From positions 1-64,000 of the IMG/VR virus record IMGVR_UViG_3300009183_006007: DNA of 64,000 bases. One strand, written 5' to 3'. Every line of letters begins with the position of its first letter. Position 1 is the stretch's first letter. The notes under the pieces were generated by a model. It had not been told where the DNA came from, did not search any database, and saw only the letters and a program-made list of their open reading frames with translations. A program made the translations under genes and the position numbers. Positions 14,751 to 39,172 of this stretch are shown in pieces. The stretch is from a virus.

Positions 14751-15317
14751 ATGAGAATTATAAAATACACAGAGTTTATTAAAGAAGAATTTACAGACAC
14801 TCCAGAATCATATATTGAGGTAGCTCTTAAACAAATTAAGAAGAAAATCGACAAGATGTTTGAATTTCAAGAGGCTATTGATACTGAACCATCTGATGAA
14901 GAAGAAGGTGATAAAGAAATCAGAAAAGCTAAATTAGATAGTAAGAAGAAGTCAGAGATGTCATTCAAAGATTTGGGTGTGAGACTTGAAAGTTCGGAGA
15001 TATCAAAATATTCTAAACTTCATGACTCTTTAACTATTAAATTTTCAGATGATGAAGCAACTTATAGCTTACTTATATCAATTGACTTAAAAGATGCTCT
15101 ACCAAAAGATCCAAATGGTGACTATTCATATGAAGACATTGAGAAATGTTATATGAAACTAAAGAAATATAATCTTGATACATTTGAAGTTATTGGTCAA
15201 ATAACTAAAAATGTTGAGATTAAGAAAATTGACGAAGATTTCCTAATTAGTTTAAAAATTGATATGGATGATAAATTCGGAGATGATGAAGAATTTGAAA
15301 TTGAAACCAATGATTAA
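14751..15317 (+). CDS. Capsid-targeting-tagged acidic protein, 188 aa
   Basis: Starts M-R-I-I-K-Y-T-E-F-I-K-E-E, very close to the T4 internal-protein tag M-K-T-Y-Q-E-F-I-x-E, with a possible cut after I-K-E at residue 12. The remainder is highly acidic and Lys-rich, with a coiled middle and a beta-strand C-terminal half. Function unknown; the tag predicts packaging in the head. Confidence 0.7.
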   Translation: MRIIKYTEFIKEEFTDTPESYIEVALKQIKKKIDKMFEFQEAIDTEPSDEEEGDKEIRKAKLDSKKKSEMSFKDLGVRLESSEISKYSKLHDSLTIKFSDDEATYSLLISIDLKDALPKDPNGDYSYEDIEKCYMKLKKYNLDTFEVIGQITKNVEIKKIDEDFLISLKIDMDDKFGDDEEFEIETND

Positions 15318-17338: not shown

Positions 17339-18598
17339 ATGTCAATATTAAGATATAATGATTACATCTCGGAGAAAATGGCTTATGAGATGATACTTGA
17401 GTCAAAAGTTATCTATTCAAAGAAGTTTATTAATTTACTTAGTAAAATGAAAACGAATAAATTAGCAAAAGAATTATTAAACCTTTATTCAAAAGATGTT
17501 GATGCTCTAACACAAAATTATATCGATATTACTGATGAAAAAGATGCTGTGAGTTTTACACCTGATAGAAAGGTTCAAGAATTAACTAAAGATAAACCAG
17601 AAACTTGGTCTGTTACGGATTCTCAAAGATACTTAACTAAAAGTGATAGAAATAATAAAATATTTGAAGCTTTAGGATATGATAAAGAAAAATATGAATG
17701 TTGGGCACCAGAAGTAGATACAGTTGGATTAATACTTTCTGAGACAGTTAGTAGATCATCTGGTAAAATATATGTAATGTTTCAAGAGTATAAAGCAACA
17801 GATGAACCTAGAATCGGTGTTATTAACAAAGATGCTTTGGAATTATCAGATGCTGAAGATATGAGAATTTGGTCAACATCAAGAAATCCAATTAAAATAG
17901 GTAGACTAGTAAGAGCTATTTTAAATGCCGCTAAAATTACATTTGTTGATAAAGACATTGAAGATTTTACAAATACATATAAAGCAACTTATGACTTTGC
18001 TAAAGATGCTCTTAGACAATTTGATATTGTTAAAGGTGATAAGATTGCTTATTGGTATAATCAAGATAATTATGTAGATGGTGGTGGTTCTTTAAATAAC
18101 TCTTGTATGGCTGATGTAGATACTGATGATTATTTTGATATTTATACACAAAATCCTCAAGTATCACTTGTTATTCTTTATGGAGATACTGGTGTTATAG
18201 ATGGTGATAAGTATAGTGCCGATCTTATTAAAGGAAGAGCAATTCTTTGGGATTGTAAATTAGATGGTCAACCCGTTAAATTTATGGATAGAGTATATAC
18301 TACTCACGATTCTGATGTTGAGTTATTCAAACAATTTGCTGAAAAGAATGGATGGTGGTATAAAAAATCACAATCTATGGAACCAAGTGAAAAATTAACA
18401 AATGGTTCAGATGTTAAAAAAGGAGTAATAATTGCTAATCTTAATGATACTGACTTTAATTATTATCCTTATTGTGACACTATGTGTTATATTGATAGTG
18501 AATCAGGTGTTGTTTCAAATACATATTGGGATGATTCTAATAAACTTTTAAGAGATACTGGAGGTGAGTATGAAGATTCATATGATATGGAAGATTAA
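17339..18598 (+). CDS. Capsid-targeting-tagged conserved phage protein, 419 aa
   Basis: Starts M-S-I-L-R-Y-N-D-Y-I-S-E-K, a tag-like N-terminus with a possible cut after I-S-E at residue 12. Around residues 245-300 it carries G-S-L-N-N-S-C-M-A-D then Y-F-D-I-Y-T-Q-N-P and K-G-R-A-I-L-W, a combination I associate with uncharacterised proteins of many large phages. The C-terminus is acidic. Unit bounded by its own promoter-like element and a terminator. Confidence 0.7.
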   Translation: MSILRYNDYISEKMAYEMILESKVIYSKKFINLLSKMKTNKLAKELLNLYSKDVDALTQNYIDITDEKDAVSFTPDRKVQELTKDKPETWSVTDSQRYLTKSDRNNKIFEALGYDKEKYECWAPEVDTVGLILSETVSRSSGKIYVMFQEYKATDEPRIGVINKDALELSDAEDMRIWSTSRNPIKIGRLVRAILNAAKITFVDKDIEDFTNTYKATYDFAKDALRQFDIVKGDKIAYWYNQDNYVDGGGSLNNSCMADVDTDDYFDIYTQNPQVSLVILYGDTGVIDGDKYSADLIKGRAILWDCKLDGQPVKFMDRVYTTHDSDVELFKQFAEKNGWWYKKSQSMEPSEKLTNGSDVKKGVIIANLNDTDFNYYPYCDTMCYIDSESGVVSNTYWDDSNKLLRDTGGEYEDSYDMED

Positions 18599-18754: not shown

Positions 18755-20647
18755 TTACTTAACTTCTTCATAAGATGTATCTTCAACGTCTCCACCGCCA
18801 TTACCATTGTCAGTGCTTTCGTTAGAACTTTGTGGTTCTTCTTGAGATTGTTGATATAATCTTGTACTAATTGTTTGCCAAGTTTCATTTAACTTATTAG
18901 ATGTTTCATCAATTGATGTTACATCTTTTTCTGAGTGAGCCTTTTTCAAAGCATCTAAGTCAGTATTAAGTAAAGACTTATCTTCATCAGTCAACTTATC
19001 AGAAAATTCTTTGATTTGTTTTTCTGTTTGGAAGATAAGATTATCAGCCATGTTTACTTTGTCAACCAATTCTCTTTCGAGACGATCAGACTCAGCATTT
19101 AACTCAGCCTCAGCTTTCATTTTTTCAATTTCCTCTTTAGATAGTTGAGAACCACCTTCAATTCGGATTTTGTTTTCTTTACCACTAGCTTTATCTTTAG
19201 CAGATACAGATAGAATACCATTAGCATCAATATCTAATGTTACTTCTACTTGAGGAATACCTCTCGGAGCTGGCATGATACCATCAAGATGGAATCTACC
19301 TAACGAACGGTTATCCTTAGCCATTGGTCTTTCACCTTGTAGAACGTGAATTTCTACAGATGGTTGATTGTCAGAAGCTGTTGAGAACGTTTCAGACTTA
19401 CGGGTCGGAATTGTTGTATTAGCTTCAATCAACTTAGTCATCACACTACCCATAGTCTCAATACCTAAAGATAGAGGTGTTACATCAAGAAGAAGAACAT
19501 CAGTAATACCACCACTCAAAACAGCTCCTTGAATAGCCGCTCCTAAAGCAACAACTTCATCAGGGTTAACAGATTTGTTTGGTTTCTTACCTAAGTACTT
19601 CTCAATTGCTTCTTGAATAGAAGGTATTCTTGTAGAACCACCAACAAGAATTACTTCATCAATGTCAGATGGTTTAAGTCCTGCATTCTTCAAAGCACTT
19701 TTAGCACAAGCGATAGCTCTATCAACAAGACTTGAGGTCATTTGATCAAACTTAGCTTTAGTTAATTGTTTAACGAAGTGTAAAGGAATACCATCTTTAG
19801 CAGTGATGTATGGAAGATTGATTTCTGATTGAGAAGTTGAAGATAATTCAATTTTCGCTTTCTCAGCAGCTTCTTTCAAACGTTGAAGACCCATAGCATC
19901 TTTTGAAAGATCCATTCCGTGTTCAGATTTGAATTCATCAACCATCCAAGTAATGATTGCGTTATCAAAGTCGTCACCACCTAAGTGAGTATCACCATCA
20001 GTAGATTTAACTTCAAATACACCATCACCAATTTCTAGAACTGATACATCATGAGTACCACCACCACAATCGAATACTAAGATTTTAGAATCTGTATTCT
20101 TTTTATCTAACCCGTAAGCTAGAGCTGCCGCAGTTGGCTCATTAATGATACGCTCAACTTTCAAACCAGCGATTTCACCAGCTTCAATAGTTGCAGTTCT
20201 TTCAGCGTCCCCGAAGTAAGCAGGAACCGTAATAACAGCTCTTTTTACTTCATATCCTAAATAGTCTTCAGCAGTTTTCTTCATTTTCTGAAGAATCATT
20301 GCTGAGATTTCTTGTGGAGTGAAAGTTCTATCATCGATTTTAACACCTGGTACATTTTTACCAGCTTTAACAACTTCATAAGGAACTCTCGTTACCTCAT
20401 CAGTGCAAGCTGAAAAATCTTTACCAATGAACCTCTTAATAGAGTAAACAGTATTTTTTGGATTGGTAACTGCTTGTCTTTTAGCGGGGTCTCCAATTTT
20501 TCTATCTTTGTCGGTAAATCCGACAACTGAAGGAGTTGTTCTTTTCCCTTCAGAGTTGGTGATTACGATTGGTTCACCACCTTCAACTACAGCTACACAT
20601 GAGTTTGTAGTTCCTAAGTCAATTCCAATAATTACGTCTTTTGCCAT
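18755..20647 (-). CDS. dnaK: Chaperone DnaK (Hsp70)
   Basis: Full-length 630-residue Hsp70. ATPase motifs: G-I-D-L-G-T-T-N-S near residue 8, [11 protein letters not shown] near 168, F-D-C-G-G-G-T near 192, V-G-G-S-T-R-I-P near 330; substrate domain [10 protein letters not shown] near 386; charged, Ser/Asn/Gly-rich tail. GrpE (25132) and DnaJ (26481) are also in the window, so the phage has the complete system. Likely roles: folding of virion proteins and replication complex remodelling. A 21 bp imperfect palindrome lies upstream. Confidence 0.97.
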
Positions 20648-20779: not shown

Positions 20780-21049
20780 ATGAAATTTATAAAAGAATGG
20801 TCTGAATGGAATCCTACATTAAATAAGGAAGTTTTAGATTTTGTTGAAACCAATAAAGTGAACTTAAGACATCTTTGGAAAGATGATATGAGTGAAGAAG
20901 AAAATATGAAATTCTTAATAGATTACTTTACTGAATACCCAGATGAAATGACTTCTTCTATAAAGACTGACAAAATTAAATCAGTAACACCTATATCCGG
21001 TATTAAAAATGCGGTTCCGACTCTTCAAAATATTGGAGGTGTTTGTTAA
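20780..21049 (+). CDS. Small tag-like hypothetical protein, 89 aa
   Basis: Starts M-K-F-I-K-E-W-S-E-W-N, similar to the tag on the 6485 gene, though the cleavage site is less clear. The rest is acidic and helical with a Gly/Val end. Preceded by a TTTATATATA stretch 9 bp from the ATG. Converges with the next gene, overlapping by 4 bp. Confidence 0.55.
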   Translation: MKFIKEWSEWNPTLNKEVLDFVETNKVNLRHLWKDDMSEEENMKFLIDYFTEYPDEMTSSIKTDKIKSVTPISGIKNAVPTLQNIGGVC

Positions 21050-21312
21050 ATATTAACTAAACTTTTTTCATTCCATTTTTCTAATGGAATTGAAATTAAA
21101 GATTTTGTAAAATGCTCGTGTGATTTTCTTTGTTCTTCGGTTCCTCTATTAAAGTTCCAAAATTTAGCATCATCAGATGAGCATTGTAAAGTAACTGATC
21201 TTCCACCACCATCTGTTCTATATAGTCTAGAACCACAAATACTACATTTATAATTTGTATTCATTTCATTTAGTTGGTTAAAAAATGATTCATATTTAGT
21301 TAAGTGCTTCAT
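21046..21312 (-). CDS. Tagged zinc-ribbon-like protein, 88 aa
   Basis: Starts M-K-H-L-T-K-Y-E-S-F-F-N-Q-L-N-E, a capsid-targeting-like tag with a possible cut after L-N-E at residue 16. A C-S-I-C pair near residue 22 and a later single Cys plus several His residues suggest a small, possibly incomplete zinc-binding fold. Function unknown. Confidence 0.6.
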   Translation of the reverse strand: MKHLTKYESFFNQLNEMNTNYKCSICGSRLYRTDGGGRSVTLQCSSDDAKFWNFNRGTEEQRKSHEHFTKSLISIPLEKWNEKSLVNI

Positions 21313-21338: not shown

Positions 21339-22670
21339 TTAATTATCATCAGATTCTTCCGGATCTTGAAAGAACAAGGTTTTATCCTTTGTTTGTAACC
21401 ATTCTCTAGATAGATTTAATCTCTTAGTTAAATCTCTTAACCAAGTCTTAGCCATTTCATATGGTTCACATCTTTGTAATGATTTCTCATATCTTTCCAT
21501 ACCACCATAGATTTTAAGAATATCTTCTTTAGATAACTTTCTCATATCATCAGCTTTAACCATAGCCATTACAAAACTAAAGTTTGTGTTATCTTTTTCC
21601 TGTAAGGCATAATCTTTTCTAGAAATACCAGAATTGATATATTGTTTATAAGCCTTTTCAATATCTACTGATTTATCAGTTAAAGCCTTTTTCACAATAG
21701 AAATAATTTTGTTAATTCTAATATGTGCTTCTTTTTCATCTTCTGGAACTTGTCCTAAGATATCATCTATCTTATCATCTAAGATATAACCAATAATAAT
21801 ATGTTCTCTATATAAGTCTTCGGTAAGTAAACCATGACGTTCACAATACCAAGGAGTCTTCAACTTAAAGAAGAAGTCTCTTCCGTGTTCATCTTCACAA
21901 GTAACAATTGAACCTTCTTTATCTACTTGAGTTGCAGTTAGTTCAATTAACTTGTCTAAGTCATGAATTTCATCTTCAAATGGAGCAACTCTAATAGAGC
22001 CAACTTTATCTAAGTGGTCTCTAATATCAATATGTTTACCAGTAACATTATCTCTTAATCTTAATAAGATTAATTCTTCACTTGGGTATCTTAGAACAAT
22101 ACGATTGTTTGGTGCCACATATTCAAAAATTGGCACGATATTATTATTCAAAGCCCAATCAACTAAAGATTTAACTTCTTTATTAGTTTTATAAACTCTG
22201 TTTATACCATCAGCTTGGTCATTATCAAATCCCATTTTGGATTTACCAATAACTTTACCATTTGGTAGTTTAATGAATGAAGCAATAGAACCATCTTCTT
22301 TGTTATTTACAAATTTGATTTTATAGTTCTTAACAACTGAATATAAAGAGTCAGGTACTTGATTTAAGTTAAAGAACTTTTCAAGTAAAACATATCTATT
22401 GAATAGGGAACCATCTTCATTAAAAACGAAAGTTAGTCCTCTCATTTCATAACCTTTCAATTCTGGTTTATCAGGAATAGGGTTAGAGAAGTCTTTGTAT
22501 TGAGCAAGACGATAATTAAACACAGATACATTAAATCCATCAACAACCATCTTAGATTCATAAAATGGTGCTTCCTCACCTGAACATAACTCTACGGCTT
22601 GTTCATATGTTGGGATAGCGTTTATTGAAACACTTTCCTTTATAAACTCTGTATATCTAAATAATTTCAT
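21339..22670 (-). CDS. rnlA: RNA ligase 1 (T4 RnlA-like) with N-terminal capsid-targeting tag
   Basis: ATP-dependent RNA ligase, 443 residues. Motif I is K-E-D-G-S with lysine 124 as the AMP acceptor; further matches to T4 Rnl1 are M-R-G-L-T-F near 76, E-K-F-F-N-L-N near 97, S-K-M-G near 143 and F-E-Y-V-A-P-N-N-R-I-V-L near 182. T4 Rnl1 repairs tRNA cut by the host anticodon nuclease PrrC. Compared with T4 it has an extra 18-20 residues at the start, M-K-L-F-R-Y-T-E-F-I-K-E-S, matching the tag of other proteins here, with a possible cut after I-K-E. Confidence 0.9.
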   Translation of the reverse strand: MKLFRYTEFIKESVSINAIPTYEQAVELCSGEEAPFYESKMVVDGFNVSVFNYRLAQYKDFSNPIPDKPELKGYEMRGLTFVFNEDGSLFNRYVLLEKFFNLNQVPDSLYSVVKNYKIKFVNNKEDGSIASFIKLPNGKVIGKSKMGFDNDQADGINRVYKTNKEVKSLVDWALNNNIVPIFEYVAPNNRIVLRYPSEELILLRLRDNVTGKHIDIRDHLDKVGSIRVAPFEDEIHDLDKLIELTATQVDKEGSIVTCEDEHGRDFFFKLKTPWYCERHGLLTEDLYREHIIIGYILDDKIDDILGQVPEDEKEAHIRINKIISIVKKALTDKSVDIEKAYKQYINSGISRKDYALQEKDNTNFSFVMAMVKADDMRKLSKEDILKIYGGMERYEKSLQRCEPYEMAKTWLRDLTKRLNLSREWLQTKDKTLFFQDPEESDDN

Positions 22671-22682
22671 CTTTGTATATAT

Positions 22683-22916
22683 TCATATTTTCAATCTAAA
22701 AAGATTTAATAATCTTTCACTTTTTTCAAATACCTCACCATCTTCACTAGTGACCATAATCTCACCAGTTTCAAAAACTTCTATCAACCAGTAAAGTTCT
22801 CCATCTTTTTCAGTTCCAAAAAAGGCAGCTTCGTCGGTCTCATAAACAAATTCAAGTTCTAATTCATCAGACTCTTTGAATAGTTTAGTATTTGATGCTT
22901 TATGTGATAGATTCAT
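22683..22916 (-). CDS. Small acidic hypothetical protein, 77 aa
   Basis: Strand-rich acidic protein (F-V-Y-E-T-D-E-A-A-F-F-G) with no family recognised. Starts 1 bp after the stop of the gene upstream on the same strand, so probably co-transcribed with the 23334 gene and RNA ligase. Confidence 0.6.
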   Translation of the reverse strand: MNLSHKASNTKLFKESDELELEFVYETDEAAFFGTEKDGELYWLIEVFETGEIMVTSEDGEVFEKSERLLNLFRLKI

Positions 22917-26480: not shown

Positions 26481-27548
26481 ATGAGTAAAGATTATTACAA
26501 AGTACTAGGCGTAGATAAAAACGCTTCAGATGATGAAATAAAAAAAGCATATAGAAAAAAAGCTATGGAATTTCATCCAGACAAAAATCCGGATAATCCA
26601 GAAGCAGAGTCTAAATTTAAAGAAGCTGCTGAAGCATATGATACATTATCATCACCGGATAAAAAAGCTAGTTATGATAGATACGGAACAACTGGTAACC
26701 CATTTGGTGGAGGTGGAAATCCATTTGGTGGAGGTGGATTTAATATGGAAGATATTTTTTCACAATTTGGTGATGTATTTGGAAATTCATTTAATCAAAG
26801 ATATGGTGGTGGACAAAGACCACAAAGTAAAGGATCTAATCTAAGAATAAAAGTTAGTTTAACTATTGATGAGATTCTAAAAGGAGCAGTTAAGAAATTA
26901 AAATATAAGAGACAAGATAAATGTAATTCTTGTAATGGTGTAGGTGGAACTGATCCAAGAACTTGTATTCCTTGTAATGGTTCTGGTCAAAGAACAATTG
27001 TTCAAAACACACCATTCGGTCAAATCAGACAAGTCGCTACTTGTCCAGATTGTTCTGGTAGTGGTAAAGTTGTTGCTGTGAAATGTAACTCTTGTAGAGG
27101 TGAAGGAGTAAGTATTAAAGAACAAGTAGTTGATGTTGAAATCCCCAAAGGAGTTTCTAATGGAATGCAATTAACAATGCAGGGATTTGGTAACTTTATT
27201 AAAAATGGATCGGCTGGTGACTTACAAATTATAATAGAAGAAATAATTGACCACTCTTTTAGAAGAGAAAATAATAATATAGTTGTGGAAAAAACTATAT
27301 CTGTTATAGATGCTATTATTGGATCAAATATTAAAGTCTCAACACCACATGGTGAGATACCAATTGCTATTGAGCCAGGAACAGAACACGGAAAGGTTTA
27401 TAGAGTATCAGGTAAAGGAATTCCAGATATTAATTATGGACTTGGTGATCTTTATGTTAAAATCAGTATTAAAATTCCAAAGAAAATTGAGTTGGATGAA
27501 AAATACACTCTTGAGAAATTAAAATCTTCGAAAAACTTTTCAGTATAA
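26481..27548 (+). CDS. dnaJ: Chaperone DnaJ (Hsp40)
   Basis: 355 residues. J domain 1-70 with H-P-D at 32-34; Gly/Phe-rich linker with N-P-F-G-G-G-G repeats about 75-112; zinc-finger region with four C-x-x-C-x-G-x-G-type repeats (C-N-S-C-N-G, C-I-P-C-N-G, C-P-D-C-S-G, C-N-S-C-R-G) about residues 151-217; C-terminal substrate-binding domains. A type I DnaJ that delivers clients to DnaK. Slightly shorter than E. coli DnaJ (376). Ends just before a strong terminator. Confidence 0.96.
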
Positions 27549-27864: not shown

Positions 27865-28671
27865 ATGGCATTAAATGATATAAATGGATATGGTGACACT
27901 TATGTTCCCTACCAAGGGGGATATACGATAGAAGAAATGGTGGATCTTGTTCAAAATGAATTAACAATTTCTTGTGCATTACCAAAGTCTTTACCTGATG
28001 CAAATATCAGACAGATAATTGAAACAAGAGCTTTACCTTGGTTCTATAGATCTTATCAATTCGCCGTTCAAAAAATGTATTTCTTAATAAAGAAAGATGC
28101 TTTCTTCTCAGAAGAATTTACAAAATATAATTATGTTAATGTTCCGTGTGAGATTCAATCAGTTGTTTATCTTTATGAGGTTAGAGGAGATAGTTTATTT
28201 CAATTAGGTATTAACACTCCTAACTTATCAGTAAACTTAGGTGTTACCAATCAACCTTATTTATCATCTTATGTTACAACTATTGGTGAATTAGGTGTTT
28301 ATAAAACGGTATTAGACTCGATGTCTGATATGTTAAATCAGTTAAATAAATATACATTAAAGTATCAGTTTAATCAATTGAACCATAGAATTCATATCTT
28401 AACTAATGTTCAATATGATGTTATTATGGAAGCTTATGCTAATATTCCTGCTGAAAATCTATTCAAAGATGATTTATTCTTTAAGTATGTAACCGGATAT
28501 GCTAAACAACAATTAGGTAATATGATGGGAAGGTACGATTTTCAATTACCGGGTGGTATTAAAATACAGGCTGCTGACTTAGTTTCACAAGGTAAAGAAG
28601 AAGTAAAAGAAGTTGAAGAGGAAATTAAGGGTCAATCGAATTCAACTTGGTTCATTATGGTGAAAAAATAA
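27865..28671 (+). CDS. 13: Neck protein (T4 gp13-like)
   Basis: 268 residues. Similarity to T4 gp13 as I recall it: a conserved C-terminal block L-P-G-G-I-K-I-Q-A-A-D-L near residue 231 (gp13 has L-P-G-G-V-T-I), a preceding Y-A-K-Q-Q-L-G region, a middle Y-L-S-S-Y-V-T-T-I-G and a hydrophobic T-N-V-Q-Y-D-V-I-M-E-A-Y strand. gp13 closes the filled head and joins it to the tail. Its promoter element fits late expression. Confidence 0.75.
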   Translation: MALNDINGYGDTYVPYQGGYTIEEMVDLVQNELTISCALPKSLPDANIRQIIETRALPWFYRSYQFAVQKMYFLIKKDAFFSEEFTKYNYVNVPCEIQSVVYLYEVRGDSLFQLGINTPNLSVNLGVTNQPYLSSYVTTIGELGVYKTVLDSMSDMLNQLNKYTLKYQFNQLNHRIHILTNVQYDVIMEAYANIPAENLFKDDLFFKYVTGYAKQQLGNMMGRYDFQLPGGIKIQAADLVSQGKEEVKEVEEEIKGQSNSTWFIMVKK

Positions 28672-28678
28672 AAAGTAA

Positions 28679-29074
28679 ATGAAACACTTAAAAAAATTTA
28701 ACGAATCATTAAAAGAACCAATTGATGTTGAATCTGATATTATCGAGTTCAAAGAAAAATTGGGTAAAGCTTATCATAACTTCTTTTTAAAAATGTATGT
28801 CTATTCACCTGAAGAAGAATATGCTAAAGCAATGAATAATATAGAACACCTTATAGTATCTAATCCAACTATGACTGATGATTGGGATGTTTGGGAAGTT
28901 TATGGAACAGATGATTATGGTAGAAATTCTGGAACAATTATGAATGTTAGAGCTGTTTCTAAATTACATGCTAAAATTAAAGTAGCTACTATTAAAAATA
29001 ATTTAGAAATATTAGCTACTGGTTACTACTCAGCATCTAAGACTTCTAAATCCGATTTCCATAGGTATATATAG
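28679..29074 (+). CDS. Capsid-targeting-tagged hypothetical protein, 131 aa
   Basis: Starts M-K-H-L-K-K-F-N-E-S-L-K-E, a clear example of the tag with L-K-E as possible cut after residue 13. The rest is an unrecognised acidic protein with W-D-V-W-E-V-Y-G near the middle. It follows the neck gene by 8 bp, which fits late expression alongside virion genes. Confidence 0.7.
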   Translation: MKHLKKFNESLKEPIDVESDIIEFKEKLGKAYHNFFLKMYVYSPEEEYAKAMNNIEHLIVSNPTMTDDWDVWEVYGTDDYGRNSGTIMNVRAVSKLHAKIKVATIKNNLEILATGYYSASKTSKSDFHRYI

Positions 29075-33207: not shown

Positions 33208-33924
33208 ATGAAACATTTAAAAACTTATAATCAAATGAATGAGGAAATATCCTTTAAAGGATTAGCCCCAATTTTAACATCTTTAATTATGACACTAAGT
33301 TCTTCAGATGTTGCTGCATTTGGTGGTGCATTTGGTGGACATGGTGGATTTGGTGGACATGGATTTGGTAATCCATATGCTAATAGAGGAGGTGGACAAA
33401 TTGGCAACGGAGAAGGAAACGGACAAATTGGTATCGGACAAATTAGTGATCCCGGATACAAAAGACAGGCATCTAGTATAATTCAATCTCAATCAAGAAA
33501 TATAATTAATGATTTGGAAAAGATGAAATCAGTAACTGATGATCCTCAATTACTATCCTTAATTAGCTCAATTAGTGAGTTATCAAATTGGCAATATTCT
33601 GAGGGTGTTGAACCGATTAATTTGGTTCTTGGTAAGTTGAGAGGTTATATTAAATCACATGATGTAAATGATGATGTAATAAATAGCACTTTAGATCATT
33701 TATCAAAGGGTGATATTGATAATATTAAATCTGACTATAACAGATTGTTGACAGAATATGATGATATTATCGGACATGGTACTGGTAATGCTAGATCTGG
33801 AAATGTTAGTGGATTTGTTACTGCTATAGATGTTTTAAATATTATTTTATGCTTGTTATTATCAGTTTTAGTATTAGTTGTGGGTAAAGGATTCTGGGAT
33901 TTATGGAGAACTAAATCCTATTAA
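33208..33924 (+). CDS. Tagged glycine-rich membrane protein, 238 aa
   Basis: Starts M-K-H-L-K-T-Y-N-Q-M-N-E-E (tag-like). A hydrophobic stretch around residues 20-35, then a Gly/His/Phe-rich segment (G-G-H-G-G-F-G-G-H-G) and Gly/Gln/Asn repeats at about 37-85, then a helical middle and a strong C-terminal membrane segment (about 208-230) ending W-R-T-K-S-Y. An injected membrane protein is one possible reading. First gene of the tagged array. Confidence 0.65.
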   Translation: MKHLKTYNQMNEEISFKGLAPILTSLIMTLSSSDVAAFGGAFGGHGGFGGHGFGNPYANRGGGQIGNGEGNGQIGIGQISDPGYKRQASSIIQSQSRNIINDLEKMKSVTDDPQLLSLISSISELSNWQYSEGVEPINLVLGKLRGYIKSHDVNDDVINSTLDHLSKGDIDNIKSDYNRLLTEYDDIIGHGTGNARSGNVSGFVTAIDVLNIILCLLLSVLVLVVGKGFWDLWRTKSY

Positions 33925-33937
33925 AAAATAAATAATT

Positions 33938-34546
33938 ATGAAATACTTAAAAAGATTTAACGAAAGTAATAGTACACCATTTAGAAGTAAACTTCTTTAT
34001 AAAGATTCTAATATTGGTAAATATGAACTATATGTTGATGGTTCTACTGGATGGGGAATAATATTCCCTAATGGTTATATGGAAATTGAAGAGGGTCCAC
34101 ACGAGTCTGTTGGTTTTATGAATGGTGAAATAAATGGAGTTAGTATAGGAGCAAGAGGAAATGATGTACCTAGAATACCTGGAAAATATTGGGAAGGTAA
34201 TATGTCAAGTGATGAATTGTCAAGATTTTTTGATAGGGTTATTAGCAAATACAATAATATCACTGAATCATCTGATGATTATAAAGATTTAAGTATGTAT
34301 AATCCATACTATAGTGATAAAGATGAAAGTGATAAAGATAATCTATTGAAATGGTATATGAAAGGATTTAATGATGAGTTAAGAGGAACAACCACAATTG
34401 AATCAGACAATAAAATAGATATGGTTGCTTATAACTTAGGAGCACAACACGCCATAATTGGTGATGATGTTTCTAGTATTGATAATCTATCTGATGAAGA
34501 AATAATATCTATGATTGAAGATATTTATAATAAAAATCAAAAATAA
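33938..34546 (+). CDS. Capsid-targeting-tagged hypothetical protein, 202 aa
   Basis: Starts M-K-Y-L-K-R-F-N-E-S-N. The first half is a beta-rich domain (Y-E-L-Y-V-D-G-S-T-G-W-G-I-I-F), the second an acidic helical one. No family recognised. Second gene of the tagged array. Confidence 0.7.
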   Translation: MKYLKRFNESNSTPFRSKLLYKDSNIGKYELYVDGSTGWGIIFPNGYMEIEEGPHESVGFMNGEINGVSIGARGNDVPRIPGKYWEGNMSSDELSRFFDRVISKYNNITESSDDYKDLSMYNPYYSDKDESDKDNLLKWYMKGFNDELRGTTTIESDNKIDMVAYNLGAQHAIIGDDVSSIDNLSDEEIISMIEDIYNKNQK

Positions 34547-34549
34547 GAT

Positions 34550-34840
34550 ATGAAATATTTAAAAACATTTGAATCATATGATAATGATATCGCTACTCAG
34601 ATAGCTGAAGACCTTTTACCAAAACTTCAAAAGCTTAGACAAGAGAAAGGTAAGTTTACCGTAGGCATGTTTGATAACTATATGGAAGAAAGAGGTGGTA
34701 ATATGAAACTAACTGATGAAATTATGAGTATACTTGTAAGTATGGGATTTGATTTTGATCCATATGATGATGAAGATGATAATGAATATGGTGATGATGA
34801 TTTAGATGATCATCCACTTTTTTCATATAATAAGAATTAA
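34550..34840 (+). CDS. Capsid-targeting-tagged acidic protein, 96 aa
   Basis: Starts M-K-Y-L-K-T-F-E-S-Y-D. Helical core (Q-I-A-E-D-L-L-P-K-L-Q-K-L-R-Q-E-K) then an acidic end rich in Asp. Ends at a strong palindromic terminator. Confidence 0.65.
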   Translation: MKYLKTFESYDNDIATQIAEDLLPKLQKLRQEKGKFTVGMFDNYMEERGGNMKLTDEIMSILVSMGFDFDPYDDEDDNEYGDDDLDDHPLFSYNKN

Positions 34841-35112: not shown

Positions 35113-35553
35113 ATGAAATATCTTAAAGGATTTAACGAATCAATGGAAGAACAAATCTATAAACAAGTTCTTGATTCTATAAAAGATTGTTTTCAAGAGT
35201 TTGAGGATAATGGTTGGTATTGGATAGCGGATTCTTATTCAGGTACTTATCCAGGTATATCTATTTGGCAAAATCCAAACTTTAATTGTAGAATGATGAA
35301 TAAAGAAGAATCTGATCCAAGAAACTGGACTCTAAATAAAAATCCTTACGAAAAAAACATTGATATTACTGGTGAAATTAAATCAGATGGTTCTATTAAT
35401 TGGGAAATGAATGAAGACGAAACAGATAGTGAAGATGGTAAAGATTTTTTAGTTGCTGTAAAAAGATTACATGATGAAACTGGACTTGATTTCAATTTCT
35501 CATATAATAATAGAGGTGGTGAAAGAAGAATAATAATACAAGGTAGAATATGA
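35113..35553 (+). CDS. Capsid-targeting-tagged hypothetical protein, 146 aa
   Basis: Starts M-K-Y-L-K-G-F-N-E-S-M-E-E. The body has a W-Y-W-I-A-D-S-Y-S-G-T-Y-P-G-I-S-I-W segment and an alternating-strand C-terminal half. Not recognised. ATGA overlap with the next gene. Confidence 0.7.
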   Translation: MKYLKGFNESMEEQIYKQVLDSIKDCFQEFEDNGWYWIADSYSGTYPGISIWQNPNFNCRMMNKEESDPRNWTLNKNPYEKNIDITGEIKSDGSINWEMNEDETDSEDGKDFLVAVKRLHDETGLDFNFSYNNRGGERRIIIQGRI

Positions 35554-35948
35554 AAAGACTAAGAAAATTTAATGAGAGTGTATCTCAAATAGATTATGAT
35601 TATGTATATAGTTGTTTTGCTGAACTTATAGATGATAATAAAGCTGAGATAGAATTGATGCAAGGTGAATATGTTAAAGTACCATACATAACTATTAGAT
35701 TAAAAACTATTCCTAAAATAGATCCTAGAACTACTAGTCAAGCAAAACCTATTGAAAATAAAAAGTCCTCTATCTATAATTATATTACAGGACATAATAG
35801 TAATAATGAGTTATTACAAGAATTAGAAGTTAGTATAAATAGATTATCGGAAGAATATCCTGATTATAAATTACAATTTAATGATTGGGGTACTTCCATA
35901 TTTATGGAAATATTTAAAAATACAGAAGAAGAAAAATATCCATTTTAA
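35550..35948 (+). CDS. Capsid-targeting-tagged hypothetical protein, 132 aa
   Basis: Starts M-K-R-L-R-K-F-N-E-S-V-S-Q. Unrecognised mixed alpha/beta protein. Overlaps genes on both sides. Confidence 0.7.
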   Translation: MKRLRKFNESVSQIDYDYVYSCFAELIDDNKAEIELMQGEYVKVPYITIRLKTIPKIDPRTTSQAKPIENKKSSIYNYITGHNSNNELLQELEVSINRLSEEYPDYKLQFNDWGTSIFMEIFKNTEEEKYPF

Positions 35949-36487
35949 TGAAAATAAAGAATTATATACAATTTATAAAAGAATCATCTGGATATCAATA
36001 CGGATGTGTAATGGTTGAAGTACCAGTAAGTAATTGGAATGAGATAACTAGTTATATCGATCCAGAAGATGTTTATACAGGAGGTGATGATACTCACGGA
36101 ATTCAAGAAAATCCACATGTTACTATATTATATGGTTTACATAAAGAAGTAACATCAGAGATGGTTAAATCAGTATTTGAAGGGTTTACAAAAGACATTA
36201 ATATAGAAGTTAATGGTATTGACATCTTTGAAAATAAAGACTATGATGTTGTCAAGTTTAATGTTAATCCTGATGGTGCTCTTCAAGAACTACATGATAA
36301 ACTTTCTGAGTTTCCTAATTCAAATGATTTTCCGGATTACAAACCACATATAACAATTTCGTATGTTAAAAGTGGAACAGGTAAAAAATATGTTAAACCA
36401 GATTATAAATATGAAGTTAAGAATGTTGATAAGATAACTTATTCAATGGTTGATGGTAATAAAATAAAATTCAAATATACTAAATAA
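35948..36487 (+). CDS. 2H phosphoesterase with capsid-targeting tag
   Basis: 179 residues. Two H-x-T motifs, P-H-V-T-I (H57, T59) and P-H-I-T-I (H134, T136), about 77 residues apart, define the 2H phosphoesterase fold, which acts on 2'-5' or cyclic phosphodiesters. Relatives include 2'-5' RNA ligases and the phage anti-CBASS enzyme Acb1. The N-terminus M-K-I-K-N-Y-I-Q-F-I-K-E-S is a tag with a possible cut after I-K-E. If packaged, it would act at once after injection. Substrate not determinable from sequence. Confidence 0.8.
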   Translation: MKIKNYIQFIKESSGYQYGCVMVEVPVSNWNEITSYIDPEDVYTGGDDTHGIQENPHVTILYGLHKEVTSEMVKSVFEGFTKDINIEVNGIDIFENKDYDVVKFNVNPDGALQELHDKLSEFPNSNDFPDYKPHITISYVKSGTGKKYVKPDYKYEVKNVDKITYSMVDGNKIKFKYTK

Positions 36488-37743: not shown

Positions 37744-38237
37744 AAATAAAAACATTCGAATCTTTTAATGATGAGTTCTCAGGTGAATGGGATGGACCGA
37801 GATGGCAACAACATTTTAAAAGGTTGAAAGAAGATCCTGATTATAAGATTAGATGGATAGAACACCGAGATTCACAAGTTAAGGAATATTGGATGAGTCT
37901 TAAACCATTTGAAAAGGAATCTGATGTGCCTGATTTACCAAATCCATTAAACGACTTTTATAAACAAAGAATTATAGAACTAGGTGGTATTCCTAAATCC
38001 GAGTTAGAAGATGGTCAATGGTATTATGGTAACTTTAGAAATTCAGACTTAGGTAAGTGGGATTCTGAGAAACAAGAATTTGGACATTGGAGATATAAAT
38101 TTGGACACAGATGGGACACTTGTAATCATTTCGAAGATGATAATAGATATGCACTTTTTGTTCCATTAAGAAAAGCTAACAATGAAGAGTTAGAATCAAT
38201 TAAAAAAATAGAAAATGAAGCATCTAAAAACATATAA
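37740..38237 (+). CDS. Capsid-targeting-tagged hypothetical protein, 165 aa
   Basis: Starts M-K-I-K-T-F-E-S-F-N-D-E-F. Rich in Trp and charged residues (H-W-R-Y-K-F-G-H-R-W-D-T). No family recognised. Its last 23 bp encode the tag of the next gene in another frame. Confidence 0.65.
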   Translation: MKIKTFESFNDEFSGEWDGPRWQQHFKRLKEDPDYKIRWIEHRDSQVKEYWMSLKPFEKESDVPDLPNPLNDFYKQRIIELGGIPKSELEDGQWYYGNFRNSDLGKWDSEKQEFGHWRYKFGHRWDTCNHFEDDNRYALFVPLRKANNEELESIKKIENEASKNI

Positions 38238-38484
38238 AATATTTGAGTGGGTTGAAGTTAGTAATAAACTTGAGAAGAAATTTGAATTTAAGGATTTCTT
38301 ACAAGCTCTTAAATTCATAAATGAACTTTCTAAAATTTGTGAAGAGCAAAATCATCACCCCGAAATAAATTGGATTTATAATAAAGTGAAACTTACTTTA
38401 TCTACACACGATGCTGGTGATATTGTTACAAAAAAAGATTTAAAATTATCAAAGTCAATTGATGAAATACTTAAAAACATATAA
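38215..38484 (+). CDS. phhB: Pterin-4a-carbinolamine dehydratase with capsid-targeting tag
   Basis: 89 residues. The family signature is clear: F-K-D-F near residue 25, then E-E-Q-N-H-H-P-E (H47, H48), W-I-Y-N-K-V near 53 and T-H-D-A-G (H65), followed by a final helix. The enzyme dehydrates 4a-hydroxytetrahydropterin and can act as a dimerization cofactor. The tag M-K-H-L-K-T-Y-K-I-F-E replaces the usual N-terminal helix start up to the conserved Trp12. The gene overlaps both neighbours by 23 bp. Confidence 0.85.
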   Translation: MKHLKTYKIFEWVEVSNKLEKKFEFKDFLQALKFINELSKICEEQNHHPEINWIYNKVKLTLSTHDAGDIVTKKDLKLSKSIDEILKNI

Positions 38485-39172
38485 ACTATTCGAATCAGTT
38501 ATTACTGAATTTGAATTTCCTACAGAATTGGATATTCAAGAACTATTCTATGATCTAACAGATGAAGATACAAACTCTAAATGTAAATTATATTCATCAG
38601 GTTATCAGTTTTTTACAACAGATAATATAACAAGATCTATTAGAAGTCAATTATTCTCCGATATGAGTTTTGAAGAAAACTGGATAAATAAAGAATGTGA
38701 AGATACTCAAGATACTTGGAAAAATATGTTTATTGATTTATCTAAACCTGTATCAAATGATATGATTAAATTGGCTGTTAGAAATTATAATGATGTTTAT
38801 TTTTTAGAGGTTGAAGAATCAAAAAATAGTGCTGGTAAAAGTTATCTTGAAAGATTACAAGAAAATATATTAAATGATATTATTCCGGCTTATCCAATTA
38901 TTTATTTAAATCTAGGTCTTTTTCATCCAGATAAATTACCAGTAGTTGTAGAGTGTTTACAAAGATTATATGAAGTAACTGGGTTTAGACCAACTTCATC
39001 AGTTTGGGCTGAAGATTATGTAGATGAGGAAACAGGAGATCTTGTTACTTTTTATGGAGCTGACTTACAACTTTATAAAGTAAATGATATAGAATATCAG
39101 AATCTATGTAAGATTGTTGGAAGAATAAATCCAAATAATAAAACACAAGAAGTAACTAAACATTTTTTATGA
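38462..39172 (+). CDS. Capsid-targeting-tagged hypothetical protein, 236 aa
   Basis: ATG at 38462 preferred over a TTG 3 bp upstream. Starts M-K-Y-L-K-T-Y-K-L-F-E-S-V-I-T-E, with I-T-E as a possible cut after residue 15. Its tag is read in a different frame over the end of the dehydratase gene. Body unrecognised, acidic. Last tagged gene of the array. Confidence 0.7.
   Translation: MKYLKTYKLFESVITEFEFPTELDIQELFYDLTDEDTNSKCKLYSSGYQFFTTDNITRSIRSQLFSDMSFEENWINKECEDTQDTWKNMFIDLSKPVSNDMIKLAVRNYNDVYFLEVEESKNSAGKSYLERLQENILNDIIPAYPIIYLNLGLFHPDKLPVVVECLQRLYEVTGFRPTSSVWAEDYVDEETGDLVTFYGADLQLYKVNDIEYQNLCKIVGRINPNNKTQEVTKHFL

Follow-up and report, generated by a model that had tools for sequence, protein, structure and literature searches.

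A tagged T4 Rnl1-family RNA ligase as predicted capsid-targeted cargo in a relative of the 'Mahaphages'

Is an RNA ligase that begins with a short peptide, one also carried by many other proteins of the same phages, packaged in the virion and delivered with the DNA? The gene in question lies in a stretch of 64,000 nucleotides (positions 1 to 64,000 of IMG/VR record IMGVR_UViG_3300009183_006007; here called the window), which is a portion of a virus record 75,196 bases long. The phage is a relative of the 634-642 kb 'Mahaphage' genomes, a clade with Bacteroidetes as predicted hosts (PMC7162821). The record was compared with three complete genomes of uncultured phages, W01 (LR745206, 634,780 bases), W02 (LR756502, 642,428 bases) and W03 (LR756504, 636,363 bases).

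The ligase and its N-terminal extension

The locus has the following parts:

21339..22670, minus strand: Rnl1-family RNA ligase of 443 residues, N-terminally tagged (PF09511, PHROG 562, structure 2c5u, Foldseek)
21357..22616, minus strand: Rnl1 core, residues 19-438, with motifs KEDGS (K124), FEYV, EG and KxK-WY (two alignments)
22632..22670, minus strand: tag MKLFRYTEFIKES, residues 1-13, with a predicted prohead-protease cut after E12 (I-K-E|S) (class A matrix, pLDDT)
22676..22683, minus strand: AATATATA element, 5 bases ahead of the ligase ATG, present also ahead of virion genes and other tagged genes

To judge from its sequence, the open reading frame encodes a T4 Rnl1-family ligase, predicted to join 3'-OH and 5'-phosphate RNA ends with ATP. 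This identity, already proposed in a sequence-only reading of the window, was borne out by matches to PF09511 (RNA_lig_T4_1; E=8.9e-20 over residues 76-275, above the cut-off), PHROG 562 (E=1.8e-54 over residues 21-380) and the T4 Rnl1 structure 2c5u (E=2e-23, with the alignment starting at residue 23); structures 9do4 and 5tt6 were matched as well. Nucleotidyltransferase motifs I, III, IV and V and the fold of the T4 Rnl1 family are present, and K98, K124, D126, G127, E183, E252, G253, K269 and K271 are invariant in the ligase alignments. In a Foldseek search with the ligase model, T4 Rnl1 ranked first (E=1.8e-21), with a TM-score of about 0.5 and a high rmsd that is put down to domain orientation. 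The window ligase is 68% identical to its counterpart in W01, 65% to that in W02 and 36% to that in W03.

The N-terminus reads MKLFRYTEFIKESVSIN, and the conserved core begins with IPTYE at residue 19; in the alignment with T4 Rnl1 the tag precedes the first conserved residue, as the sequence-only reading had expected. T4 Rnl1 has its start about 17-18 residues further in, and its alignment with the window ligase runs from about residue 22. Against the closest homologues without a tag, which are 55-58% identical and start, for example, MKTIYNIPTYDE or MKVIPTYEE, the extension measures 12-15 residues. Depending on the homologue compared, the extension comes to 12-18 residues overall, so that the earlier claim of added residues matching a tag stands while their proposed number, 18-20, was too high. 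The same extension in untagged homologues would have spoken for a part of the fold, but each of the 13 homologues that lack the tag begins right at the core, and some of these are from phages that tag other genes. An AlphaFold2 model made with only 7 close orthologues was poor (pLDDT 49.8), which was remedied by 42 diverse homologues; with these, pLDDT was below 50 for residues 1-16, which are disordered in the model, and high for nearly all of residues 17-438. By alignment and by model, the tag is placed outside the ligase fold.

A tree was made of 36 ligases with the tag residues excluded from the alignment. The untagged ligases occupy one side of a single branch with support of 97, the pattern that one gain of the tag would leave, in rows that are not independent of one another; the tag is kept in 20 rows, and two further rows have doubtful, possibly decayed tags. 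Automatic starts were wrong for ligases L119, L124, L125 and L127; three were re-set from upstream DNA, and L127, which lacks a clear start, was omitted. The W03 ligase is untagged and other W03 genes are tagged, and several phages with an untagged ligase carry tagged genes right beside it, indicating that the system is present there and the ligase not enrolled. The W02 ligase and the gene just upstream of it, unrelated in their bodies, are identical over 23 bases of tag DNA, a finding that points to the copying of tags from one gene to another. Since kindred phages carry the same ligase either tagged or untagged, any benefit of packaging would be open to direct comparison.

The peptide across the genomes

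Two tag matrices were built, one for class A tags (KKYxxFIxES) and one for class B tags (MKYLKKFNES), with a threshold that lets through no more than about 3 in 9,000 internal Met sites; the ligase tag scores 20.9 on the class A matrix against a threshold of 10.0. Among the 2,995 open reading frames of the window record and W01, W02 and W03, the union of class A (100 starts) and class B (175 starts) comprises 270 tagged starts, of which the window record has 13, W01 has 96, W02 has 115 and W03 has 46. The tagged proteins belong to 88 distinct body families in W01 and 107 in W02. When trained on W03 alone, the class A matrix found 69 tagged starts in the other records (about 2 expected) and passed all three tagged ligases. 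The tag is conserved between orthologues in 27 pairs, against 2.9 expected, and the 109 genes with MK[HY]L[KR] spell it in 48 different ways at the DNA level. None of 35 replication homologues and none of 19 virion structural homologues is tagged, and T4-like loci around rnlA gave no tag match in 464 open reading frames; a tblastn search of phage records with the tag consensus found matches only in W01 and W03. Orthologues in other lineages occur both tagged and untagged for a glutamyl-tRNA synthetase (GluRS), a HAD protein and the ligase. Taken as a whole, the comparisons identify the tag as a real N-terminal label common to mostly unrelated proteins, and its presence on the ligase, first noticed in the sequence-only reading, is upheld by the matrices, the cross-validation and the orthologue conservation.

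The window holds these further genes, called by matrix where described as tagged:

14751..15317, plus strand: tagged protein of unknown function (MRIIKYTEFIKEEFTDTPESY...), with tagged orthologues in W01 and W02
17339..18598, plus strand: tagged protein (MSILRYNDYISEK...) from the largest tagged body family
21046..21312, minus strand: downstream neighbor of the ligase, with a tag-like start (MKHLTKYESFFNQLNE...) below the matrix threshold; the W02 orthologue scores as tagged
27865..28671, plus strand: homologue of T4 gp13 (neck), an untagged virion gene with AATATATA upstream (phmmer E=4.9e-4)
28679..29074, plus strand: tagged small protein (MKHLKKFNES...), adjoining the neck-protein gene
33208..33924, plus strand: tagged protein (MKHLKTYNQMNEE...)
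33938..34546, plus strand: tagged protein (MKYLKRFNES...)
34550..34840, plus strand: tagged protein (MKYLKTFESYDND...)
35113..35553, plus strand: tagged protein (MKYLKGFNES...)
35550..35948, plus strand: tagged protein (MKRLRKFNES...)
35948..36487, plus strand: tagged 2H phosphoesterase (MKIKNYIQFIKES...) with two HxT motifs, Acb1/2'-5' RNA ligase-like
38215..38484, plus strand: tagged protein (MKHLKTYKIFE...)
38459..39172, plus strand: tagged protein (MKYLKTYKLFES...), the tag ATG lying one codon inside the listed ORF

The tagged cargo consists mostly of unknowns and includes NUDIX, Sa_NUDIX, PPK2, lysozyme, HNH and 2H phosphoesterase proteins. The family of the protein at 17339-18598 has 11 members in four genomes and neither a Pfam nor a PHROG match. 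The 2H phosphoesterase matches PF13563 (9e-11), PF23474 Acb1 (2e-9) and PHROG 755, and its tag is present also in W01, W02 and all six close viral-contig homologues. The tagged GluRS was seen in W03 (263096-264682; L087:3096-4682), and its W02 orthologue is untagged. The ligase region is flanked by genes for DnaK (HSP70; 18755-20647, minus strand) and an apparent DnaJ-like protein, recognized by eye (26481-27548, plus strand); in W01 and W02, too, DnaK is encoded close to the ligase.

Counted within 60 bases upstream of gene starts, an element of the AATATATA type precedes 15 of 19 homologues of T4 virion genes and 143 of 270 tagged genes, leaving about half of the tagged genes without it, compared to 10 of 35 homologues of replication (early) genes and 393 of 1879 others. 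In the window and in W01 the element lies ahead of the tagged ligase, and among the ligases as a group it accompanies 14 of 20 tagged genes and only 1 of 13 untagged ones. Conversely, the full Bacteroidetes-type promoter (TTTG-N-TAnnTTTG) stands ahead of none of the 257 tagged genes counted but of 74 among 1803 others (p=9e-5), and the untagged W03 ligase has this host-type promoter in place of the AATATATA element; taken by itself, the -7 box TAnnTTTG does not distinguish tagged (10/20) from untagged (7/13) ligases. This distribution is consistent with a late promoter. The ATATATA element of tagged genes, for example at 22676-22683 (minus strand), usually ends 4-6 bases ahead of the ATG, and transcripts would be nearly leaderless if it were a -10-like box.

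Capsid targeting and the prospect of RNA repair

Several results connect the tag with the capsid-targeting sequence (CTS) of T4. The class A matrix, trained without T4, placed IPIII and IPII at the top of 276 open reading frames from two T4 segments, and when a third segment was included gp61.1 (MKTFKEFIKE...) ranked top. The class B matrix did not recover the T4 internal proteins, the commoner flavor, MKYLKKFNES, being a poorer CTS match. In the IPIII sequence MKTYQEFIAE, as mutants show, residues 4 (Y) and 7 (F) serve in targeting and residues 8 (I) and 10 (E) in processing (PMC9026906). At the equivalent positions, the class A tag has Y/F/W in 100%, F/Y in 95%, I/L/V in 86% and E in 88% of cases, and these four functional positions are the most conserved ones of the tag; the pattern of Y4, F7, I8 and E10, common to unrelated proteins, is present in the huge-phage tags.

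W01, W02 and W03 each have a gene for an S77-like (gp21-like) protease (E=4e-6 to 1e-4, below the Pfam gathering score), placed between those for the portal and the major capsid protein; the window record, itself a genome fragment, gave no S77 match. The pro-regions of the major capsid proteins appear to end in INE|N (...HSINE|N) or IHE|N, the same type of site as in the tag. At W01 93266-93520 and W02 80294-80539, the tag is fused, at the pro-region glutamate, to a copy of the N-terminal end of the mature capsid protein, as placed by pairwise alignment. By BLAST, T4 gp61.1 is 46% identical to gp23 over 37 residues (E=6e-9), with FIKE aligned to FLTE, the sequence at which gp21 cuts gp23; a MAFFT alignment gave no position for this site in the huge-phage capsid proteins. 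The gp61.1 gene (NC_000866 18966-19130, minus strand; L115:2967-3131) encodes what looks like a CTS, then a copy of the start of mature gp23, then a Lys-rich tail. Small proteins like the capsid N-terminal region with its pro-segment are also encoded outside the capsid gene at W01 291407-291880 and W02 315773-316270.

It is probable, on these grounds, that the ligase is a cargo of T4-type capsid targeting, packaged and injected. Packaging is well supported by the match to the CTS, the I-x-E end, the position of the tag outside the fold, the unrelated proteins that bear it and the upstream element shared with virion genes. From the sequence we infer core binding, cleavage, presence in the virion and injection as successive steps. 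Residues 1-12/13 (MKLFRYTEFIKE|S) would bind the prohead core, by which newly made ligase would be incorporated in the head; the gp21-like (S77) prohead protease would cut after the Glu of I-K-E, leaving mature Rnl1, starting SVSINAIPTYE, within the capsid, and the mature enzyme would enter the next host along with the DNA. The ligase would be one item in a large injected payload of about 50-115 tagged proteins per huge-phage genome. With about 100 tagged proteins per genome, far above the handful of T4, some tags may serve another purpose.

Once injected, the enzyme would most likely be used to seal tRNAs, of the host or the phage, that anticodon nucleases have cut early on; the ends would be healed by enzymes from early genes or from the host. 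Rnl1-type ligases require 3'-OH and 5'-phosphate ends (PMC7824862). HAD_PNKP, the T4 Pnkp-type phosphatase domain, is absent from W01, W02 and W03, and no kinase-phosphatase partner of the T4 Pnkp type was found. The candidate healing enzymes, an AAA_33 kinase and a SAK-type HAD phosphatase, are separate genes, both untagged and some with host-like promoter boxes; for repair, the ends would therefore have to be healed by enzymes made early, by the host or by the tagged 2H enzyme. Two HAD proteins, weakly matched by polynucleotide-kinase PHROGs, were set aside as the repair phosphatase, the true SAK-family members being other, untagged genes. The tagged 2H phosphoesterase may act on 2',3'-cyclic phosphates and open them, yet its resemblance to the anti-CBASS protein Acb1 is just as strong. 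Of the sequence-only reading's central proposal, virion packaging gains support, by way of the CTS match, the I-x-E end, the shared tag and the upstream element, while tRNA repair by the packaged ligase before phage genes are expressed, which may still occur, is weakened by the untagged candidate healing enzymes.

Could the tag be an address for another cell site, such as a replication compartment, a membrane or the ribosome, rather than the capsid? The tagged proteins are numerous, and bodies such as GluRS in W03, PPK2 and NUDIX would be useful inside the infected cell, but the agreement with the T4 CTS at its functional residues, the I-x-E end, the fusions to the mature capsid-protein N-terminus, the upstream element in common with virion genes and the lack of tags on the replication homologues make this improbable; a tubulin/PhuZ gene was looked for and none was found. 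Still less credible is shared ancestry of the tagged proteins, or a translation-start signal in place of a peptide. Some tagged genes are paralogous, as in the family of 11, and in many genes AATATATA lies only 4-6 bases ahead of the ATG, so that start regions do have features of their DNA in common; against this stand the 88-107 distinct body families per genome, the diversity of DNA spellings among the MK[HY]L[KR] genes and the GluRS, HAD protein and ligase orthologues that exist with and without the tag. T4 rnlA is annotated both as ligase and as catalyst of tail-fiber attachment, so an Rnl1 can act in assembly, and the extension might serve the ligase itself in a role like this one of gp63. 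We hold this to be the least probable of the readings, given that the extension is missing from T4 Rnl1 and from 13 untagged relatives, that the identical peptide sits on unrelated proteins and that residues 1-16 are disordered in the model.

A more serious contender, to which we give somewhat less than an even chance, overlaps with the packaging reading: the ligase is packaged, but as a passenger, for a role on other RNA, or as an enzyme active only after early healing enzymes are made. It draws on the untagged SAK-type HAD phosphatase and AAA_33 kinase, some with host-like promoter boxes, on the missing HAD_PNKP domain and on the untagged ligases that evidently suffice in kindred phages. Against it, no Rnl2 homologue was found by phmmer in W01 and W02 and the tagged ligase (window and W01) has the virion-type element ahead of it, so that ligase activity at an early stage would call for packaged copies; a tagged 2H phosphoesterase is also at hand.

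Under the preferred reading, in which the ligase is packaged and injected, a broader proposal has slightly better than even prospects: phages of 630-640 kb would inject roughly 50-100 proteins by means of a T4-type tag, including the ligase and a second-messenger-destroying 2H phosphoesterase, with genes joining or leaving the set by gain or loss of the tag. A search of open-access text found no RNA ligase reported as CTS cargo and no Rnl1 as packaged in a virion, nor such a tag in huge phages or on about a tenth of the genes of a phage. If the proposal is true, the tag would make it possible to tell directly, from sequence alone, which proteins uncultured huge phages inject, about a hundred unknown small proteins would be prioritized as first-wave anti-defense factors, and RNA repair could be delivered with the genome, ahead of a stop to translation by a host nuclease.

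Comparison with known systems

Other phages also deliver proteins with their DNA. The head ejection (inner-body) proteins of phiKZ and SPN3US, like the set proposed here, are many, are cut after glutamate by a gp21-like protease and are injected; according to a 2026 review, phiKZ injects the anti-defense protein Tad1 (PMC13282480). These ejection proteins mostly have long propeptides of about 80-130 residues (PMC5694885) and, unlike the huge-phage proteins here, no common short tag. The P1 proteins DarA and Hdf and other packaged anti-restriction proteins are anti-defense proteins tied to head assembly (PMC12810830), in a different phage and with proteins different from the tagged huge-phage cargo.

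T4 RNA ligase 1 (rnlA, gp63) shares with the window ligase the nucleotidyltransferase core, the invariant catalytic residues and the fold; it has no tag, whereas the window ligase has one at its N-terminus. T4 Rnl1 is not known to be packaged. The T4 protein gp61.1 (54 residues), for which no function was found in the open-access literature, is like W01 93266 and W02 80294 in its CTS-like start (MKTFKEFIKE), its copy of the N-terminus of the mature capsid protein (gp23) and its Lys-rich tail.

The nearest parallel is with the T4 internal proteins. IPI, IPII, IPIII and Alt, like the tagged proteins of the huge phages, have an N-terminal peptide of 10-13 residues with the spacing K-x-Y-x-x-F-I-x-E (MKTYQEFIAE in IPII and IPIII), diverse bodies, a gp21-type protease and an I/L-x-E cleavage motif. 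The T-even internal proteins are diverse defense proteins with only the CTS in common (PMC3012670), and the huge-phage cargo list resembles them in its diverse bodies under a common label. Unlike the handful in T4, there are 46 tagged proteins in W03, 96 in W01 and 115 in W02, and the cargo, whose packaging is here predicted, has an RNA ligase, an Acb1-like phosphoesterase and a second, shorter flavor of tag (MKYLKKFNES). CTS-tagged internal proteins being known from T4, the huge-phage tags would be a variant of the T4 CTS system on an unusually large scale.
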